A stretch of 43,386 nucleotides of DNA from positions 1 to 43,386 of IMG/VR virus record IMGVR_UViG_3300005734_000003; one strand, given 5' to 3'. Source of the DNA: a virus. Of the stretch, positions 2,087 to 43,372 are shown piece by piece (the stretch's first letter is position 1; each line of letters starts with the position of its first letter). The notes under the pieces are model-generated. The model was not told where the DNA came from. It did no database searches and saw only the letters and a program-made list of their open reading frames with translations. The translations under genes and the position numbers were made by a program.

Positions 2087-2305
2087 ATGATCGATAAAAT
2101 ACCACAAGCAGCAAGCAGAAATAATACTGAAATCAGAAACCCAGCTGGAATAAATCAAGTTTCTTATGATTATTCTAGCTTTCATAAGTGTCATTACTGT
2201 AATGGTAGTGGCAGTTTTAGTGTATTAGGGTTTAACTGTACTGGTAAGGTAGTAGAAAGTAATTTTCCTTGCAGTTATTGTAATGCAGGACAAAAGGAGA
2301 GCTAA
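2087..2305 (+). CDS. Small zinc-finger protein (DnaJ-type CxxCxGxG knuckles)
   Basis: A 72-residue protein. ATG at 2087 is chosen because AAGGAG lies eight bases upstream. It contains CHYCNGSGSF and a second CSYCNAG, which together form one DnaJ-like CxxCxGxG zinc knuckle pair. It is the first gene of the accessory block interrupting the head genes. It could bind RNA or a host protein; nothing in the sequence fixes its target. Confidence 0.6.
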   Translation: MIDKIPQAASRNNTEIRNPAGINQVSYDYSSFHKCHYCNGSGSFSVLGFNCTGKVVESNFPCSYCNAGQKES

Positions 2306-19653: not shown

Positions 19654-19787
19654 AGTCCTGTTGCTCCTTTTATAACGTTGAATACCGAGGCCATGGCGTG
19701 CTGCAAGTGCTCGCTTTTGCATCGTACTGTGAAATAGCCGCATTTTGCGGTTACTGTGTATAAGTTATCCTGCTTGGTTATTGTCAT
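19650..19787 (-). CDS. 45-residue hypothetical protein, first gene of leftward cluster
   Basis: MTITKQDNLYTVTAKCGYFT and VRCKSEHLQHAMASVFNVIK, ending GATGL. The frame is supported by an ATGA overlap with the next gene, whose ribosome site lies within its last codons, and by a promoter 29 bases upstream of its start. The short beta hairpin plus helix with two Cys gives no known family. Confidence 0.45.
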   Translation of the reverse strand: MTITKQDNLYTVTAKCGYFTVRCKSEHLQHAMASVFNVIKGATGL

Positions 19788-19815
19788 TTTGTTGTTCTCG
19801 TTAGCTGATAATCAA

Positions 19816-19843
19816 ACTCTAGCACACTAAAAAACGATTGCAA
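19816..19843 (-). promoter_or_regulatory. Leftward promoter for the 19.8-18.1 kb cluster
   Basis: On the minus strand TTGCAA, a 16-base spacer ending in TGC, then TAGAGT. It has the same extended -10 architecture as the promoters at 20155, 32677 and 33480. It is divergent from the short-RNA promoter at 19859. Confidence 0.6.
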
Positions 19844-19858
19844 ATATTTTTTACACTA

Positions 19859-19950
19859 TTGACACACATATATTGTTAATGATAGTATCAACCCTGACTC
19901 AAGTAGTCACTCTCCTTTTTCCCGCCGCGGTTCGCCAAAGCGGGTTTTTT
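19859..19950 (+). ncRNA. Promoter plus predicted 56-base small RNA 1 with its own terminator
   Basis: Promoter TTGACA (19859-19864), 18-base spacer ending TGA, TAGTAT (19883-19888). The predicted RNA starts near 19895 with hairpin TGACT-CAAGT-AGTCA (19895-19909), then a single-stranded CTCTCCTTTTT (19910-19920), then CCCGC...GCGGG (19921-19944) and six T. Hairpin, C/U-rich seed and terminator is a classic small-RNA layout. No ORF fits. Alternatively it is an attenuated leader for the early genes that needs antitermination. Confidence 0.55.
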
Positions 19951-19956
19951 ATGTGC

Positions 19957-20081
19957 TTGCAATGCTAAACAACCAATGATAGTATCTATTTCGTACCTTC
20001 CTTAGTACGTTTATTTGGTAGCTATTTACTATCCAGGGCTTAGCTACTGTCCCGCACCCTTTCATGGGATGCGGGTTTTTT
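19957..20081 (+). ncRNA. Promoter plus predicted 90-base small RNA 2 with its own terminator
   Basis: Promoter TTGCAA (19957-19962), 17-base spacer ending TGA, TAGTAT (19980-19985). The predicted RNA starts near 19992 and folds as CGTAC-CTTCCTTA-GTACG (19992-20009), GTAGCTA...TAGCTAC (20018-20047) and the strong terminator CCCGCACCC...GGGATGCGGG (20051-20075) with six T. The twelve bases AATGATAGTATC around the -10 are repeated exactly from module 1 (19878-19889 and 19975-19986). It lies directly upstream of the early-type genes. Confidence 0.55.
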
Positions 20082-20154
20082 ATGTCCATGTTTCAGCTAT
20101 AAGCACAACTTTAAATAAGACTCCCCACTATTTTAACTTATTAGCAAAAACTCT

Positions 20155-20182
20155 TTGCATTCTCGCGGCTGTGTGCTATGTT
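20155..20182 (+). promoter_or_regulatory. Promoter for the 20.2-22.0 kb gene row
   Basis: TTGCAT (20155-20160), 16-base spacer ending in TGC, TATGTT (20177-20182). It lies 31 bases upstream of the first start codon and downstream of both short-RNA terminators, so this row can be transcribed independently of them. Confidence 0.55.
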
Positions 20183-20213
20183 CTTATTGTTAACTAAACA
20201 AAAGGAGAAAAAC

Positions 20214-20378
20214 ATGCTCGGATTTATATTTTTATTTCTTATACCTGGTATTGCAGGTTTCGTTACTGCAGCAAACGGTGCGTCTTACTTTAAGCCGGAC
20301 GAGTTACACTTGGCTTTAATGATTAATGTACCAATATGCCTTATTTCTAATATTACTTACTGGGCATTAAAAGACTAA
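20214..20378 (+). CDS. Small membrane protein
   Basis: A 54-residue protein with two hydrophobic helices (MLGFIFLFLIPGIAGFVTAA and LALMINVPICLISNITYWAL). AAAGGAG lies eight bases upstream of ATG. First gene of a rightward row of small genes, so probably made early. A superinfection or host-membrane role is possible but nothing specific was recognised. Confidence 0.55.
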   Translation: MLGFIFLFLIPGIAGFVTAANGASYFKPDELHLALMINVPICLISNITYWALKD

Positions 20379-22759: not shown

Positions 22760-22784
22760 CCGTGTTCCGCTTATTGTATCACAT

Positions 22785-22824
22785 AAAAACCCCGCGTAAG
22801 CTGCAAGCAGCCAAGAGGCAGGGG
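22785..22824 (-). terminator. Leftward terminator 1 of the replication operon
   Basis: On the minus strand CCCC, an internal GCTG-CTTG-CAGC hairpin, GGGG, then TTTTT. It lies downstream of the last leftward gene (23058-23270) and converges on the HTH gene unit. Confidence 0.55.
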
Positions 22825-23057
22825 CCGTATTTTGTGTATTATATATCGTTATTTATGATACAGAAAGGCTCTAGCGTATTATGTGTAAGCTACTAAGGCT
22901 GACGGGTTATCCAGTATCACCGCCGTTACCTGCTACATTTCGAGGCTAGAACACCGCCTACTGGTGGCAGCTACCAATTAACCATTACCGGACAATGCCT
23001 CGACCTTGTTACAGGTTGTCACGGGTTGACGTTTCCGCCCTTGGTTACGCCCGCTGT
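22825..23057. other. Non-coding interval with an inverted repeat
   Basis: No credible gene was found between the HTH gene (ending 22711) and the leftward gene ending at 23058. The interval is less AT-rich than other intergenic regions here. It contains TCGAGGC (22940-22946) matched by GCCTCGA (22997-23003), a seven-base inverted repeat enclosing 50 bases. The spacing recalls an acceptor-like stem, but no T-arm or anticodon arm could be fitted on either strand, so no tRNA is called. Confidence 0.35.
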
Positions 23058-23270
23058 TTACCCTCGCATTATAACCCGCTCAACAAACAACCGCAACCGA
23101 GTATTTGCAGCGCGTCTAGCAGCGTTACTTTTCTTGTGCTCGACTGGCTCTAGGTCGTATGCCTCTTGCCATGCTTGTTCGTAGCCTTCTCGGGCTTTTT
23201 GCTTGTACTGCATCGGTAATCGGTTTATTTGTTGCTGTATCCATTTTACATCGTGCTTATGTACGGCCAT
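23058..23270 (-). CDS. Hypothetical basic helical protein
   Basis: A 70-residue protein, MAVHKHDVKWIQQQINRLPM onward, ending LRLFVERVIMRG. It has many Arg, Lys and Gln and helices with KAREGYEQAWQEAYDLEP. Similar small proteins with conserved R..A....R follow replication genes in phages. It overlaps the nuclease gene before it by 14 bases and is the last gene of the replication operon. Confidence 0.55.
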   Translation of the reverse strand: MAVHKHDVKWIQQQINRLPMQYKQKAREGYEQAWQEAYDLEPVEHKKSNAARRAANTRLRLFVERVIMRG

Positions 23271-23655
23271 TCAAGTAGTCCTCAAATGCAAGCATTGCGC
23301 CTTCCCAGCCTAGAGCGACACAACCAAAAAATCCCAATTCTATTTGGACTTCAAGGAATTCGATCTGTTCTTCGCTTATCTTCGACTTTGTGTGGTCTTT
23401 TCGTTTTAGCTCACAATAAAAAGAGCCAACTACAATATCACTTGCGCCAGTAACCATGCCTTCCATTTTTTCGCGATCAATCTGCTGAACGCTTCGCTTG
23501 CCTTCATTCCTGATGTGCGTTGCAATCTTTCCCCATGTATCAGGGTATTTTGCACGAATAGTGTTTATAAACGTAATCTGCTCAGCGGCTTCTTTTGGGC
23601 ATTCGCCCCTGTATGATGTATCCCCATACACGGAGACGGTTTTAGGTAGTTTCAA
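23257..23655 (-). CDS. VRR-NUC-like nuclease (PD-(D/E)xK)
   Basis: A 132-residue protein. GMVTGASDIVVGSFYCELKR contains the Asp and the E-x-K of a PD-(D/E)xK core, followed by KISEEQIEFLEVQIELGFFG (the Q..fl...... G motif of VRR-NUC) and VALGWEGAMLAF. Such phage enzymes cut branched or flap DNA. TTG at 23655 has AGGAG at the right distance; the ATG at 23682 would add nine residues and overlap the helicase gene more. It sits after the helicase, so the two may act on the same intermediates. Confidence 0.7.
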   Translation of the reverse strand: MKLPKTVSVYGDTSYRGECPKEAAEQITFINTIRAKYPDTWGKIATHIRNEGKRSVQQIDREKMEGMVTGASDIVVGSFYCELKRKDHTKSKISEEQIEFLEVQIELGFFGCVALGWEGAMLAFEDYLNGRT

Positions 23656-25477
23656 TTTCAGGCTCCTGATCAACTGGCGCATTATGCGCGAATACGTTGT
23701 AATATTTTTTAGCGCGATTTCGCTGATAGGTTATTGTCCTAGGTGGGTAGCCTTTATCCTTATGTTCTATAAAAGTGTCAACGTCTGGGCAAACCTTCCC
23801 GTTAAAGTACGCTTTGCTAAAATCTTCATACAAATTACGCAAATATTGATTATGCGTATCTGGGCTGTACCATATGTCAAATGTAGCATATTCTGTGACG
23901 TACGTCGCTTTTAACGTGTCATTACCAGCTTTTGAAATGTGCTTAACTAGTGCAAACGCTTTCACTTCGTCCGTGCTGCGTGTGTACGGGTCTGCCTTCA
24001 TGCGCTTGAATTCTATTTGAAGCTTTTCAGATGGATCAACTAATTCAGCTTTGCATTTTTCACAATACCTGGCAGCTATGTCATTTTCATGCTCGCACTC
24101 GTGGCATTCTTTTAATGACCATCTATGTTCACACCTATTAGACACGCCATTGTGCAAAGAGTAGCCAAAGCAGCGTCTACCATAATGAGCAGGCATAGGC
24201 AGATCTTTATCTGTCATTATCTTATTGCCAGCTAGGTCAACAAAATCGCCATCCTGATCAATAGGAAATTCATCCGGATTTGGTCGCATGCTAAACGAAT
24301 TGATAGTCGAGCATAACGGGCAAACAACATCGATTGGCTCTCCTTTTTTACTGTGTCTAGCTTGAATAATTGGCGAGAATAAATCGTCTTCAAGCTGGTG
24401 CCGTTCGATATTGCCAGCGTAGTCAAGAACCAAACAATCTGATTTTTCAGGATGCAAACGCATTCCTCGGCCTATTATCTGTTGTAATAGACTGGCTGAT
24501 TCGGTGGCACGTAATATTGCAATAACATCCACATGTGGCGCGTCAAACCCAGTGGTTAACACGGCAACATTGACCAAATACTTAAACCGCCTAGCCTTGT
24601 AATCATCAATAATCTGCTTCCGTTCAGCCTTTGGTGTATCACCCGTTATCAATCGACTGTTCTCAGGCGGTAGTGATTCCATGCACTCTTTGGCGTGTTG
24701 AACGGTAGCAGCAAATATCATTACACCCATGCGGCCAGCACTGTGCTCGACAACGTCTTTTATAATCTCGTAAGTCTTTCGGCCCTTGCCTTCGAATACT
24801 TGTTCGTATTCTTTTTCAGTATGGCGCTTAATTCCGCTTGTGTCGTAGCTTTCAGCATGATTCGGGTCAGCGTGTGGCTGTGTCAAGTATCCTTCTTTAA
24901 TAAGGTATGGCGCAGTGATTCGGTAAACACACGTATGAAAATAAGGATCTTTTGTCTGGTCTTCATCAACTGGGCGACCGTCGGGCCAGTAGCGAAAAAT
25001 ATAGCCATCATTTAATCGGTAAGGCGTAGCGGTTAGACCAATGACGCGCAAGTTCGGGTTTTCTTCTCTAATATCCGCAATGATCTTTTTAATTGTTGGC
25101 GTAATATTGTGGCACTCGTCAACGATTACCGCGCCAAAATTACCACGGGCGAATTGGCGTACATTATTTTTCACAGTCAATGGCGTGCCAAAAACAACGT
25201 TATGACGTAATGATTTTCCCAATGAGGCAGAATAATACGAGGCTTTAAGGTCGTAACTTTCGTACTTCTCGAAATTTTGTTCTGTTAATTCAGTGGACGG
25301 CGCGAGACACAGTACTTTTTTGCCTGTGCTTTCTTCAATCCATTTTGCAACTAATGCGACGATGATTGATTTTCCTGCTCCGGTTGCGGCTTCTACTAAG
25401 CAAGGCTCTATACTTGCCTTAATCCAATTCAATACAGAATCTATTGCATCCTGCTGGTAATCTCTCGGTTGAAACAT
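23642..25477 (-). CDS. Superfamily 2 DEAD/H-box helicase with zinc-binding modules
   Basis: A 611-residue protein. RecA-like domain 1 has the Q-like QPRDYQQDAI, Walker A ATGAGKS (31-37), DECH box (120-123) and TAT motif III (149-151). Domain 2 has NVAVLTTGFDAPHVD and LLQQIIGRGMRLH (motif VI). A CPLC segment and a zinc ribbon CHECEHENDIAARYCEKC follow, then a C-terminal domain with Trp/Tyr-rich DTHNQYLRNLYEDF. This layout matches phage replication or recombination helicases of the RadD/UvsW-like type. It would unwind branched DNA during replication. Confidence 0.9.
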   Translation of the reverse strand: MFQPRDYQQDAIDSVLNWIKASIEPCLVEAATGAGKSIIVALVAKWIEESTGKKVLCLAPSTELTEQNFEKYESYDLKASYYSASLGKSLRHNVVFGTPLTVKNNVRQFARGNFGAVIVDECHNITPTIKKIIADIREENPNLRVIGLTATPYRLNDGYIFRYWPDGRPVDEDQTKDPYFHTCVYRITAPYLIKEGYLTQPHADPNHAESYDTSGIKRHTEKEYEQVFEGKGRKTYEIIKDVVEHSAGRMGVMIFAATVQHAKECMESLPPENSRLITGDTPKAERKQIIDDYKARRFKYLVNVAVLTTGFDAPHVDVIAILRATESASLLQQIIGRGMRLHPEKSDCLVLDYAGNIERHQLEDDLFSPIIQARHSKKGEPIDVVCPLCSTINSFSMRPNPDEFPIDQDGDFVDLAGNKIMTDKDLPMPAHYGRRCFGYSLHNGVSNRCEHRWSLKECHECEHENDIAARYCEKCKAELVDPSEKLQIEFKRMKADPYTRSTDEVKAFALVKHISKAGNDTLKATYVTEYATFDIWYSPDTHNQYLRNLYEDFSKAYFNGKVCPDVDTFIEHKDKGYPPRTITYQRNRAKKYYNVFAHNAPVDQEPEIETT

Positions 25478-26993: not shown

Positions 26994-27839
26994 TTATTGT
27001 GGTTGATTTTGTTGTTTGTAAAACGTAATGTATTGAATAAGCGGGTTTTCACCTTTCAATACCTTTATTTCTTGTGGCATGTTGTAGCGGTTTTTTGCAT
27101 CAACATAGCCGGTAGTGCCATCGGAGGACGTTATCAAATAACGATCACCTGACGTCGTTACACGCGCAGACTTGATCTGCTCGCCTTTTCTGTTTGACTC
27201 GGCACCAGTTAGGTATCGCTCTTCTTTTATGTAGATGACAGCATCAGACCTACTGACATAAAGTTTTTTGCTACGCTCGTGCATTGCTAGAGAATACGTA
27301 CTATATTCGCTAGTCTCTTCTGGAGACATCTTAACTTTGTGTACTCCAGTGTGAGACAAAAATACTACTGCCATCCCTTTTTTACGTAAAAACTCACATG
27401 CTCGAATTAAATTTGAGTGCATTCCCATTGAGACATCGTACCCTTTATGGAATCCACCTGCTGCATTTCCGATAGAGTCGCAAGGCTTATTGCTGTCATC
27501 GAATACTACAACTTCCTCCTCATATAAATCATTAAGAGATGTAACAGAATCAATAACAACTGTTTTATAATCATGCTTCTCTTGAATAAGCATGCGCAAT
27601 TTATCCATAACTTCAAGTGATGGGCGATGCCCTGTCTGTTTATCAGCCTTTGTCAACTGCTTTAAGAAAGCTGGTTTTACTTCTGACGTCTCGAACACAG
27701 TCTTAGCATTTTCAGCTTGAATAAAAATAGGGTTAGGAAATAACCCAGCTAGAGAGGTTTTACCAGCGCCTGGAAAACCTACAATTGTGATGATTGGCGC
27801 TTGTGGTGCGTTATCATCTAGTTCATCTTTTAAGCTCAT
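26994..27839 (-). CDS. Sak4-like RecA-family ATPase (single-strand annealing)
   Basis: A 281-residue protein with Walker A GFPGAGKT (21-28), Walker B TVVIDSVTSL (about 93-102) and VVFLSHTGVHKV (motif after the core). Length and sequence fit phage P-loop proteins of the Sak4 group, which promote single-strand annealing together with SSB. First gene of the leftward operon, preceded by AAAAGGAG, an operator-like palindrome and a strong promoter. Confidence 0.8.
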   Translation of the reverse strand: MSLKDELDDNAPQAPIITIVGFPGAGKTSLAGLFPNPIFIQAENAKTVFETSEVKPAFLKQLTKADKQTGHRPSLEVMDKLRMLIQEKHDYKTVVIDSVTSLNDLYEEEVVVFDDSNKPCDSIGNAAGGFHKGYDVSMGMHSNLIRACEFLRKKGMAVVFLSHTGVHKVKMSPEETSEYSTYSLAMHERSKKLYVSRSDAVIYIKEERYLTGAESNRKGEQIKSARVTTSGDRYLITSSDGTTGYVDAKNRYNMPQEIKVLKGENPLIQYITFYKQQNQPQ

Positions 27840-27859
27840 TGGCTCGTCTCCTTTTGTAT

Positions 27860-27974: not shown

Positions 27975-28003
27975 GAGTAGTATTAAAAGGAGAGCTAAAC
28001 AAA

Positions 28004-30265
28004 ATGATGATAGATCATACTGACTATATAGAGGCCGGACTCAGGGTTTTTGGGGTCTACGGCGTAAAAGATGAAATGTGCGAATGCGGCAATCCAAACT
28101 GCAAAGCTTATTTCAAACATCCGCGCACATCAGCATGGCAGCACACCCCGCAATGGAGTGAAGAGCAAATAGAAATGATGGAGGAAATGGGATACTTCAA
28201 GACCGGATTCGGTGTTTTAGTATCAGGCCTTCTTGTTGTCGATGTCGATGCCAGGAATGGTGGGGTTCCATCATACGAGCGATTAGTCAGTCTAATCCCA
28301 GCTATAAAAGACAGCGGATTTGTCGTTGAGACTGGCAGCGGTGGCGGGTCAAAGCACGTATATTTTTCATTACCTGAACCTATCGCAATGGTGCAGACGC
28401 ATAAAGAATTTGAAGGTATTGATTTTAAAACGAGCGGGTTCGTGATTGGAGCTGGATCTGTTCATGCATCAGGAAATGAGTATGAAGCGCTATCCGGTTC
28501 ACCAAGCAAAATCACCCCAGCGCCACAAGCATTAATTGAGCTACTACGTAAACCAGAACGCCACAGGGCTGTTGTCGACGGGTCTGCGATAGACGTGTCA
28601 GATAGTGATCTGCGCGATATGTGCGCATATATCAACCCAAGCTGTGATCATGAAACATGGATACGAGTAGGTATGGCACTACATCATGCCACGCAGGGCA
28701 GTGGATTTGATATTTGGGATGGATGGAGCGCGGGAGGCGACACTTATCCTGGTAGTGATGAACTAGACAAACGTTGGCAGTCATTCGGTAAATCTAGCAA
28801 TCCTGTATCACTAGGCACCCTAATTCATTACGCGCGGGAGGGCGGCTACGTCGAACCCGTTGATTTTGTTCCGTCAGTCACTTTCGATATGGATGATACG
28901 CCAATTGACACCATGGCGATTGACTTGCTTCGCCCGCCCGGGTTCGTTGGTGATCTATGCGGGTGGATAAACGGGCAGTCGCTGTACCCGCGCGAATCTC
29001 TAGCAGTTGCGGCAGCATTGACGGCAGTGAGCAATATAGCAGGAATGCGATACCGTGACGAACTCGACGGGATGACTCCCAATATCATTGCGTTCTGCGT
29101 GGCTGGTTCGGGAACGGGTAAAGAATCCGTTGGCAAAGCCTTCGCAGAAATCATGCGTTTAGCTGATTTATCACCCGCTTTATACGGGGCGTTTAAATCC
29201 GAGCAAGAGCTGTACCGTAATTTATTGCGGCATCAACCTGCTTATTATTCGGTCGACGAGCTTGGCATTCAACTAACTAAGATAAAAAACGCCATGTCTC
29301 GAGGAGGGGCGTCATATCTTGAAGGTCTACTGGGTGCCGTTATGTCGGTTTACTCAAAAGCGGATTCGTTTCTACCTGTGACAGGCGATCTAAAAGAGGA
29401 GATACGCGCCCAACTTGGAAAAGAATATGCAGCAATCAATAAACAATTAGACGATGGACGAGGAAATACTGACTTACTAGAGCGCAAATTAAAAACCGTA
29501 GAACGGCAATTGAGCACGATAGATCAAGGCATCGACTCGCCATATCTGTCGATTATCGGATATACAACGCCTGCAACGTTCGACGGATTGTTCGATTTTG
29601 AACAAGCAACAAATGGGTTCTTGTCTCGCGCCATGATATTTAAAGAGCTTGAGAACAATCCGAAACGCAAGCCTAAATTTAAAAAGATGCCGATGTCCGA
29701 GCAAATGCAAAACACGCTGTTTACCTTACGCCACGCTGGGAATTATAGCGTCGTGCAGGATAGTCGCATAGAACATACAGGGCAGAAAACGGTCATACCA
29801 ACTACGCCAGAGGCGGCAGAGCTGCTAGATAAAGCTTACAACGAGTTTTGGACAATAGCAGAGCAGCACAAAAACCAGACTGGGCTAGAGGCTATACCGC
29901 GACGCGGTTACGAAATGGCAGCTAAGGTTAGCTTAATTCTGGCACTACCTGGTGGGTTACGCACCGAGGAGCACGTCAGATGGGCCGTGGCGCTCGCTAA
30001 TCGTGATATACAGGAAAAGCTAAAACTCGCCTACACAAACAGCGCAGAGAGCGAAATAGACCGCCTAGCGGCTCGAATCATGTCTATTATCAGTAGCGAT
30101 CACAGCGAGACTATAGGTGTTATCCGCAATCGTTGCCGTTCGTTTGATAAAGGGCAAGTTGACGCCGTTCTGAATAAGCTTGTCGATGCTGGGCAGATTA
30201 TATGCGAGGAAGTGCCCACCGAAAGCAAGCGACAATCCACCGTAAAAAAATATAGAGCGGCATAG
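28004..30265 (+). CDS. Bifunctional primase-polymerase (PrimPol) fused to a helicase-like domain
   Basis: A 753-residue protein. The N-terminal PrimPol domain shows the metal site VVDVDARNGG (Asp80, Asp82), the TGSGGGSKHVYF motif (Ser-x-His near 116-118) and FEGIDFKTSGFVIG. A CECGNPNC cluster lies at 26-33. Residues 200-285 resemble a PriCT domain (CDHETWIRVGMALHHATQ, WQSFGKSSNP). Residues 300-700 form a DUF3987-like helicase region with P-loop GSGTGKES (about 368-375). The C-terminal 70 residues look like a winged helix (IIGVIRNRCR..DKGQVDAVL). It primes and probably unwinds phage DNA and precedes the candidate origin. Confidence 0.85.
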   Translation: MMIDHTDYIEAGLRVFGVYGVKDEMCECGNPNCKAYFKHPRTSAWQHTPQWSEEQIEMMEEMGYFKTGFGVLVSGLLVVDVDARNGGVPSYERLVSLIPAIKDSGFVVETGSGGGSKHVYFSLPEPIAMVQTHKEFEGIDFKTSGFVIGAGSVHASGNEYEALSGSPSKITPAPQALIELLRKPERHRAVVDGSAIDVSDSDLRDMCAYINPSCDHETWIRVGMALHHATQGSGFDIWDGWSAGGDTYPGSDELDKRWQSFGKSSNPVSLGTLIHYAREGGYVEPVDFVPSVTFDMDDTPIDTMAIDLLRPPGFVGDLCGWINGQSLYPRESLAVAAALTAVSNIAGMRYRDELDGMTPNIIAFCVAGSGTGKESVGKAFAEIMRLADLSPALYGAFKSEQELYRNLLRHQPAYYSVDELGIQLTKIKNAMSRGGASYLEGLLGAVMSVYSKADSFLPVTGDLKEEIRAQLGKEYAAINKQLDDGRGNTDLLERKLKTVERQLSTIDQGIDSPYLSIIGYTTPATFDGLFDFEQATNGFLSRAMIFKELENNPKRKPKFKKMPMSEQMQNTLFTLRHAGNYSVVQDSRIEHTGQKTVIPTTPEAAELLDKAYNEFWTIAEQHKNQTGLEAIPRRGYEMAAKVSLILALPGGLRTEEHVRWAVALANRDIQEKLKLAYTNSAESEIDRLAARIMSIISSDHSETIGVIRNRCRSFDKGQVDAVLNKLVDAGQIICEEVPTESKRQSTVKKYRAA

Positions 30266-41698: not shown

Positions 41699-42349
41699 AT
41701 GCCGATTCAAGTTGAGCATGAAGGTAATACTATTACAGTTTTTACCGAATCAGAAGTTAACGAAAAGATTGAAGCAGAAGTCAAAGGCTTAAAGATTACA
41801 AACGAGAATCTAAAGGCTGAAAAGACAGAAGCGATTGAGAAAGCGCGAGAAGCTAAAGAGCAAGTACTCGCTGCAGAAGAAGCCAAGGCAAAAGCTGAGG
41901 GTAACACAGAAGAGCTTAAACGCATTTCTGATCAGCGCGAACAGGAAGCTATGGCGAAACTAAACGAATTTAAGAGCACGATCCAAGCTGAGAAAGTTAC
42001 TAACATGCTCAGTCAGGTGGTTGACTCAGTTGGCGCAAGTGGCCAGCTTAAAGAAGATTTACGAGACTTGCTTAAGTCACGTTTTGAGTTCGGATATGAC
42101 ATGGATACCCATTCGGCTACGGTTAAAGGCGATGGAGTTCAATCATTAGACGACCTATTAAAAGTCGTTAAGGAAAGCGGGCGTTATGATGCCTACTTGC
42201 CAGGCGACGGTTCCTCAGGCGGGGGTTCGCTAGGGAACAATGGAGCGGGTGTCTCTACTAAAAAACCAAGTGAAATGACGAGCGCAGAGCGCATTGAATT
42301 TAAACAGCGAGACCCAGAAGGCTTTAAAAAGGCTTTCTTTAACTCCTAA
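41699..42349 (+). CDS. Capsid scaffolding protein
   Basis: A 216-residue protein with a long charged coiled coil (about residues 20-105: EVNEKIEAEVKGLKITNENL, KAEGNTEELKRISDQREQEA), a Gly/Ser-rich linker (GDGSSGGGSLGNNGAG) and a short C-terminal helix region (TSAERIEFKQRDPEGFKKAF) that probably contacts the coat. The position directly before the major capsid gene, the low complexity and the helix content identify a scaffold. No protease domain was seen. Confidence 0.85.
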   Translation: MPIQVEHEGNTITVFTESEVNEKIEAEVKGLKITNENLKAEKTEAIEKAREAKEQVLAAEEAKAKAEGNTEELKRISDQREQEAMAKLNEFKSTIQAEKVTNMLSQVVDSVGASGQLKEDLRDLLKSRFEFGYDMDTHSATVKGDGVQSLDDLLKVVKESGRYDAYLPGDGSSGGGSLGNNGAGVSTKKPSEMTSAERIEFKQRDPEGFKKAFFNS

Positions 42350-42358
42350 GGAACTAAA

Positions 42359-43372
42359 ATGGCAACAACTCAATTAACAGACGTACAATTTGACCCAGAT
42401 GTTTACGCATCATACTTGCGTGAAGATCATCCAGACCGTAACGCCTATTCTAAATCAGGCGTAGCTATCACCAACGCATTGCTAAACGCACGCGCAGCTG
42501 GCGAAGGTGATATCACATCTATCCCGTACTGGAAAGACTTGTCCTATTCTAATGAGAATATTTCAAGTGACGATCCGGCTTCTGCGGCTACTCCAGATAA
42601 GATCTCAACTGGCAAGATGGTTGCGCGTAACGTGCACATTAACAACGCGTGGCAAACTGCAAACTTAGTAGCAGAAGTGTTAGGCACAGAAGATCCAATG
42701 CGCGCCATCCAAGCACGTACTAGCTCTTACTGGGAAAACCGTTTTGAAGCACGCTTGATCGGTATCACTACCGGCCTGTTCTTAGAGAATGAAGGCGGCT
42801 CTCAAGATATGATTCACGACATCTCGTTAGAGACCACTGTTGGTCAGACCGCGGCTAACCTGTTTAACTTCGGTGCATTCGTTGACGCGCGTGCGACCAT
42901 GGGCGAATCAGCAGACGAGCTAGCATTAATCGCTGTTCACCCAGACGTTAAAACAACCATGATCAAAGAGAATCAGATTGATTACATTCAGGATTCAGTG
43001 ACTGGTGTTTTAATCCCGACCTACAACGGCGTTCGCGTTATCGAAGATAAGAAACTGCCAGTTATCGCTGGTACAACTTCTGGTTTCCGCTACGTGTCTG
43101 TGCTGTACAAAACTGGCGTGTTCGGTTATGGTGAAGCCATGGCTAAGCGCCCTGTGGCTGTTGAGTACGACGAGCTGGCTGGTAACGGTGCAGGTATCGA
43201 GACTCTAGTAGAACGCAAGCAATGGTTGATTCATCCAGAAGGTTACAAATGGAATGAAGATACCGTAGTTGGCGATTCTCCAACTGTTGCAGAATGCGCG
43301 AACCCAGACAACTGGACTCGTGTATTTGAGCGTGAAAATGTTGGTATTGCTTTCTTAGTAACCAACGGTTAA
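42359..43372 (+). CDS. Major capsid protein
   Basis: A 337-residue protein directly after the scaffold gene, with an AAGGAA ribosome site. MATTQLTDVQFDPDVYASYL, the ITSIPYWKDLS segment, VHINNAWQTANLVAEVLGTE, DPMRAIQARTSSYWENRFEA and a C-terminal ETLVERKQWLIHPEGYKWNE are typical of a large phage coat family (HK97 fold, non-cleaved type with separate scaffold). Codon use is the most biased in the window, as expected for the most abundant protein. Confidence 0.9.
   Translation: MATTQLTDVQFDPDVYASYLREDHPDRNAYSKSGVAITNALLNARAAGEGDITSIPYWKDLSYSNENISSDDPASAATPDKISTGKMVARNVHINNAWQTANLVAEVLGTEDPMRAIQARTSSYWENRFEARLIGITTGLFLENEGGSQDMIHDISLETTVGQTAANLFNFGAFVDARATMGESADELALIAVHPDVKTTMIKENQIDYIQDSVTGVLIPTYNGVRVIEDKKLPVIAGTTSGFRYVSVLYKTGVFGYGEAMAKRPVAVEYDELAGNGAGIETLVERKQWLIHPEGYKWNEDTVVGDSPTVAECANPDNWTRVFERENVGIAFLVTNG

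Follow-up and report, generated by a model that had tools for sequence, protein, structure and literature searches.

What is the function of two short transcription units, each with its own promoter and terminator and neither with a gene, that lie one behind the other between the divergent gene rows of a phage? The window analysed here, a virus record of 43,386 bases in IMG/VR, is probably derived from a virus of a marine bacterium. It carries a tailed-phage gene set that includes a primase (PHROG 3022), a Sak4-like protein, a RecE-like exonuclease, a portal, a major head protein and a tail-fibre J protein; no tRNA or tmRNA was found. Among named relatives its primase is closest to that of Pseudoalteromonas phage H103 (51% identity). 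The two units lie in the space that separates a leftward gene row, which begins at 19743, from a rightward early row, which begins at 20214. An earlier note on this DNA had suggested a pair of phage small RNAs (sRNAs) that down-tune translation or, alternatively, put-like attenuator leaders that need antitermination. The coordinates of the locus, of its candidate targets and of a further element seen in related phages are collected in Table 1.

Table 1. Features of the locus, candidate Shine-Dalgarno (SD) targets, and a second element of related phages (positions refer to the window unless a contig is named)
Feature	Position	Strand	Basis or remark
Divergent promoter of leftward gene row, TTGCAA-16-TAGAGT	19815..19843	-	By eye; counterpart in L007
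P1, TTGACA (19859-19864), 18-nt spacer, TAGTAT (19883-19888), extended -10 (TGA)	19859..19888	+	Sequence
RNA1, ~56 nt	19894..19950	+	5' end inferred from -10 position
RNA1 5' stem, UGACU/AGUCA	19895-19909	+	
RNA1 single-stranded stretch, CUCUCCUUUUU	19910-19920	+	
RNA1 anti-SD seed, CUCUCCUUUU	19910..19919	+	Invariant in four phages; unpaired p ~1
Terminator 1, CCCGC...GCGGG then TTTTTT	19921-19950	+	
P2, TTGCAA (19957-19962), 17-nt spacer, TAGTAT (19980-19985), extended -10 (TGA)	19957..19985	+	Sequence
RNA2, ~90 nt: hairpin with CUUCCUUA in apical loop, second hairpin, intrinsic terminator	19991..20081	+	
Terminator 2, CCCGCACCC/GGGATGCGGG then TTTTTT	20051-20081	+	
P_R, rightward early operon promoter, TTGCAT-17-TATGTT, TGTGC upstream	20151..20185	+	By eye
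SD AAAAGGAGAA of first rightward early gene (20214-20378)	20200..20209	+	9-nt complement of RNA1 seed
SD AAAAGGAGAC of Sak4-like gene (26994-27839)	27846..27855	-	9-nt complement; kept in G001, G002
SD AAAAGGAGAG of primase gene (28004-30265)	27985..27994	+	10-nt perfect complement; kept in G001, G002
SD AAAAGGAGAG of gene 2307-2522	2292..2301	+	10-nt complement; duplex -20.1 kcal/mol
SD CUAAGGAA of major head protein gene (42359-43372)	42346..42353	+	Best start-region match to RNA2 loop (8 nt), weak
Second element, L003	5285-5375	+	
Second element, L005	3310-3400	+	
Second element, L018	4350-4440	-	
Second element, L007	2265-2360	-	

Anatomy of the two units

On re-reading the sequence, every coordinate previously given for the tandem promoters, their spacers and TGA elements, the common 12-mer and the terminators proved correct. 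The 12-mer, AATGATAGTATC, occupies 19878-19889 in the first promoter and 19975-19986 in the second. The units also lack a gene, as had been claimed, since the sole open reading frame listed there is a mechanical TTG ORF (20015-20197) that is not convincing. Under one fixed definition of a module, namely promoter-like hexamers followed within 140 nt by a G+C-rich stem and a T-run, these two are the only examples in the window, both strands included; the mean over 60 dinucleotide shuffles was 0.05 modules, with a maximum of one, and a tandem pair never arose.

Alignment of the RNA1 unit with the RNA2 unit yields a local score of 30, above all of 1000 shuffles (mean 15.3), owing to the promoter 12-mer and the common 3' part of the terminators. 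Within the region of the terminator 3' arm, 18 of 20 bases are identical, and RNA2 is probably a sibling of RNA1. The folding z-score is -1.0 for RNA1 alone and -2.2 to -3.2 for its homologues; that of RNA2 is -4.4, a value equalled by none of 200 shuffles. Computed pairing probabilities uphold the exposure that had been proposed for both anti-SD stretches, with the RNA1 seed unpaired (p ~1) in all four of the RNAs from phages that carry it, and the RNA2 loop unpaired at p of at least 0.93. Read from sequence only, RNA1 has features of the Hfq-binding type, in that the U-rich CUCUCCUUUUU abuts the CCCGC...GCGGG hairpin and the 3' end is UUUUUU. The module is defined here after the title of Ishikawa 2012, a reference given in PMC5362039.

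Conservation among related phages

Relatives were reached through the helicase, the primase and a sequence pattern. RNA1 recurs in three further distinct phages, G001 (L005/L208), G002 (L004/L007) and G003 (L018), and in all carriers it is positioned just 5' of the rightward early operon's own promoter. Model R1 scores 89-100 bits (cmsearch E 1e-21 to 1e-25) in the four phages, the same four that define it. G010 was left out of the carrier count; it is not independent evidence because 20 kb of it is 100% identical to the window.

Across the alignment, the -35 and -10 hexamers, the 5' stem, the exposed stretch and the terminator are kept, while the promoter spacer and both flanks have diverged. 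The counterparts of P1 read TTGACA-17-TAACAT in G001, TTGACA-17-TAATAT in G002 and TTGATA-17-TAATAT in G003, and CACTCTCC-TTTT is free of substitutions in all four RNA1 sequences. In L005 and L018 the upstream genes differ, yet RNA1 and its promoter hexamers stay. Directly 5' of RNA1 in L018 lies a DNA modification gene of the Mom family (L018:2008-2682), the last codons of which overlap the -35 hexamer. RNA1 is absent from a further relative, G006, whose early region is divergent.

The 5' stem covaries, with UGACU/AGUCA replaced by UGGCU/AGCCA, an exchange of A-U for G-C. Compensatory counts are AU:2/GC:2 for this stem and GC:3/AU:1 for the apical helix of the terminator, and each of the 13 pairs in the model can form in all four sequences (100% of cells), compared with 24-52% paired in slid controls. 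With four sequences this covariation is real but thin, representing about one event in the 5' stem and one at the terminator apex. The comparison with related phages that the earlier note had proposed as a check therefore succeeds for RNA1, with three other phages and one fully compensatory 5'-stem pair, and finds no counterpart for RNA2.

Rfam covariance models, applied at their gathering cut-offs, gave no match for RNA1 or RNA2; the best sub-threshold hits were ncS54, with 19.2 of the 43 bits required, and, at another site in the early region, tsr25 with 25.8 of 63. Searches of both RNAs by blastn against named phages returned 22-nt chance matches or none, and in five bacterial genomes with related helicases R1 matched at chance level only. 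Two sets of candidate homologues were rejected. L054, L075 and L076, which have CACTCTCCTTTT before a terminator, carry it immediately behind the stop of a gene, where it resembles an ordinary 3' terminator, and weak R1 matches in L285 and L286 belong to a different and longer non-coding element. Taken as a gene for an sRNA, RNA1 is very probably real. Its family is new to Rfam; anti-SD sRNAs as such have already been described in bacteria.

For RNA2, a search of 2.9 million viral contigs with its exact anti-SD hairpin produced no homologue among the matches listed, apart from the identical G010. All other hairpin matches that were examined are coding sequence or the SDs of genes. Among the contigs compared, RNA2 is thus confined to the genotype of the window, and the lack of an independent homologue implies that it is young or fast evolving. 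Of the proposed pair of sRNAs, what stands is RNA1 as a conserved RNA gene with an invariant anti-SD stretch; as a pair, the two are conserved nowhere else.

The related phages contain other non-coding elements. One, of approximately 85 nt and nearly invariant (AAACCATAGGCTATGG...ACCACCTCAAAT...), occurs in the same clade where the leftward replication operon ends (second element in Table 1). It closes with a CCCGCC/GGCGGG terminator and the same TTTTTTATGT tail, is absent from both the window and Rfam, and may be a small RNA or encode a short peptide. The window has at the corresponding position (22782-23080, minus strand) approximately 250 nt without an obvious gene, with a TTGCGG-17-TATAAT promoter and with terminators at the end, the folding of which is no better than that of shuffles. 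The element in L285 (734-1050, minus strand) and L286 (452-760, minus strand), two more distant phages, is long, non-coding and rich in hairpins (CCACGCCGTGAGGCGTTATGTAGTACGCACCCCGTTACGCGG...), ends in TCTCCTTGCCCGCTACCAAAGCGGGCTTTTTTT and has no Rfam match.

Complementarity to Shine-Dalgarno sequences

The 10-base complementarity that had been reported before the primase gene and before the gene at 2307 is present at both sites (Table 1), and at the primase it is kept in both other carriers that have the same primase. The Sak4-like gene, which is divergent, has its 9-nt match in the same three phages (window, G001 and G002), in all of which 8-9 nt of the seed complement also form the SD of the first early gene. 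In G003, which has other replication genes, the SD of a divergent exonuclease reads AAAAGGAGAG (10 nt) and that of the helicase AAAGGAGAG (9 nt). A third exact AAAAGGAGAG in the window (24338-24347, minus strand) is situated on the coding strand within the helicase gene (23642-25477) and not at a start.

The primase 10-mer is absent from five relatives without detected RNA1 (L009-L013, of which two contigs are short fragments). Over a set of twelve relatives without detected RNA1, 2 of 132 strong-SD genes have a seed match of 9 nt or more, compared with 16 of 71 in the carriers (Fisher 1.2e-6), the carriers being related to one another and not phylogenetically independent. For L013, the nearest non-carrier in the set, the proportion (2/23) is not clearly different from that of the carriers. 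At the primase SD the predicted duplex with RNA1 (-14.1 kcal/mol) is stronger than that with the 16S tail (-8.7 kcal/mol), so that RNA1 could compete for such SDs. Conversely, SDs of the GGAGG type fit the 16S tail better, which would make the seed selective and not universal. Individual targets are nonetheless weakly specified, because any SD complements any anti-SD.

The loop of RNA2 finds its best start-region match at the SD of the major head protein gene, followed in the window by 7 nt at a tail-fibre gene. In G001, which is without RNA2, the position of the major-head-protein SD reads CUAAGGAG. This match is suggestive only.

Proposed mode of action

The reading that we lean towards, with slightly better than even confidence, is that RNA1 and RNA2 are stand-alone, trans-acting phage sRNAs whose anti-SD seeds bind some of the SDs and thereby keep ribosomes from loading. 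In each unit a promoter of the host-sigma type with an extended -10 would drive the sRNA, and an intrinsic terminator would end it. RNA1 would be a minimal sRNA, in which a 5' stem is followed by the exposed CUCUCCUUUUU and then by a terminator that closes with a poly-U tail; this tail, together with the run of U that precedes the hairpin of the terminator, would suit Hfq. Its exposed stretch is predicted to pair with the AAAAGGAGA(G) SDs of a subset of phage genes, mostly those that lead operons, namely the genes for the primase, the Sak4-like annealing protein and the first early gene, and so to block loading of the 30S subunit. RNA2 would be a diverged sibling that displays CUUCCUUA in a hairpin loop and, owing to that sequence, would favour other SDs. 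As the exposed tips fit the SDs of operon-leading genes, the two RNAs probably throttle translation. That RNA1 acts by SD pairing we regard as reasonably likely; that its main targets are phage genes is a tentative view, held at a little below even confidence. Transcription, use of Hfq, targets, repression and timing in early infection are all matters that we infer.

Alternative explanations

The main rival is a general brake on host translation, in which host mRNAs are the principal targets: abundant mimics of the ribosome tail would mask host SDs and bring about an early shutoff of translation, general or selective, with the phage matches as a by-product. The 3' tail of 16S rRNA may be compared as UCACCUCCUU with RNA1 and as ACCUCCUUA with RNA2. 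From these, UCACUCUCCUU of RNA1 and ACCUUCCUUA of RNA2 each differ by one inserted U, and near-consensus promoters of the host type adjoin the early operon. Anti-SD sRNAs can moreover slow growth: attempts to clone NmsRB in E. coli were unsuccessful, and NmsRA had an attenuating effect on growth (PMC5362039). Such a brake would nevertheless leave the phage self-inhibited, in that the operon-leading SDs of carriers fit the seed better than do the SDs of relatives; many phage genes use other SDs. We consider this explanation unlikely. Somewhat less probable still is an insulator or promoter-clearing device, by which the units would shield P_R from read-through or hold RNA polymerase, the RNA itself having no function in trans. 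The units are always immediately 5' of P_R, their terminators are strong, a co-directional gene lies upstream in L005 and L018, and a sequence-constrained terminator in this position could also be kept as such. What an insulator leaves unexplained is the covariation of the 5' stem, the lack of any change in the single-stranded CUCUCCUUUU and the presence of a near-consensus promoter inside the unit.

The other reading of the earlier note, a put-like or attenuator leader, supposes that the RNA, by modifying RNA polymerase or by sensing a signal, lets transcription continue into the early genes, whose transcript would begin with a two-hairpin RNA and with terminators ahead of the genes. Against this stands the position of P_R, which is located 3' of both terminators and before the early operon. 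P_R or its counterpart, with hexamers read by eye as TTGACC-17-TAGTCT in L007 and L018 and TTGACG-17-TAATCT in L005, follows the last terminator in all four carriers. The early genes would thus be independent of read-through from P1 and P2, which makes a leader of this kind very unlikely. The structure likewise argues against it: putRNA is V-shaped, approximately 70 nt in length and built of two long stems (PMC9378689), where RNA1 consists of a single stem of 5 bp followed by its terminator; the MFE structure of RNA1 coincides with the centroid, an alternative antiterminator fold is absent, and there is no Rfam match. A replication-priming or origin transcript, of the oop type or as a primer RNA, would accord with a short promoter-terminator unit in the non-coding gap between divergent gene rows. 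It is the least probable of these explanations, as cumulative GC skew at 19.9 kb shows no clear origin-like turn distinct from gene orientation, no iterons were found at the locus, and an overlapping antisense gene is absent. A role as type I antitoxin against the product of the gene at 20214, a hydrophobic protein of 54 aa, was also considered and rejected, for this gene is not conserved beside RNA1 in the other carriers.

Comparison with known small RNAs

The nearest architectural parallel to the pair of SD-pairing sRNAs favoured here is provided by NmsRA and NmsRB of Neisseria, which are likewise tandem intergenic siblings with invariant anti-SDs, one between stem-loops and one in a loop, and with several target SDs; mutation of the anti-SD abolished repression of most targets (PMC5362039). 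The Neisseria RNAs differ in being chromosomal, metabolic in role and experimentally demonstrated, and in having three stem-loops and both anti-SDs on each RNA (PMC5362039), whereas in the phage the two placements are split between RNA1 and RNA2. No homology of sequence is claimed. Given this common layout, the statement in the earlier note that no counterpart had been described was mistaken; AbcR1 and other anti-SD sRNAs are also on record. The AbcR1-type RNAs of alphaproteobacteria similarly regulate translation initiation through an anti-SD region (PMC6234868), but are bacterial and of other sequence and structure; the Rfam scan gave no match to them.

In the open-access literature, virulent phages have furnished few sRNAs, among them band C/D of T4 and sRNA1/sRNA2 of PAK_P3, with function proven for none according to that source (PMC4933390). 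These too are pairs of small non-coding RNAs, and those of PAK_P3 lie in neighbouring intergenic regions, with base pairing proposed. According to the same source, the PAK_P3 RNAs are late, approximately 100 nt in length, and in one case furnished with a tRNA-like 11-mer, and SD mimicry is not reported there (PMC4933390). RNA1 and RNA2, in contrast, are predicted RNAs of the early region. VpdS of phage VP882 and PreS of lambda are phage-encoded sRNAs that act in trans; VpdS binds Hfq, and two further lambda sRNAs are Hfq-dependent (review PMC12197685). They come from temperate phages and are not presented there as SD mimics (PMC12197685); no sequence relation to them was found. The putRNA of HK022 likewise is short and structured and lies close to an early promoter of its phage, with terminators before the early genes, but it acts in cis on RNA polymerase, is approximately 70 nt in length with two long stems, and contains no internal terminator (PMC9378689). 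RNA1 and RNA2 do not have its length, its two long stem-loops or its place on the same transcript as the early genes.

Biological implications

A more elaborate version of the sRNA reading can be entertained as a speculation of low probability. The two RNAs would form a translational timer that competes with the 16S tail, the phage having tuned its operon-leading SDs to SD-mimic sRNAs of its own; RNA1 would gate the early and replication operons, and the duplicated RNA2 the late structural genes, such as that for the major head protein. The sRNAs known from virulent phages are few, and those with a known function fewer still. RNA1 adds an RNA gene that is compact and conserved, whose seed is clear and whose candidate targets make up a short list. 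Its proposed action predicts co-evolution of phage SDs with phage sRNAs. If this is true, the phage would set the timing of translation by mimicking the tail with which the ribosome itself binds mRNA.
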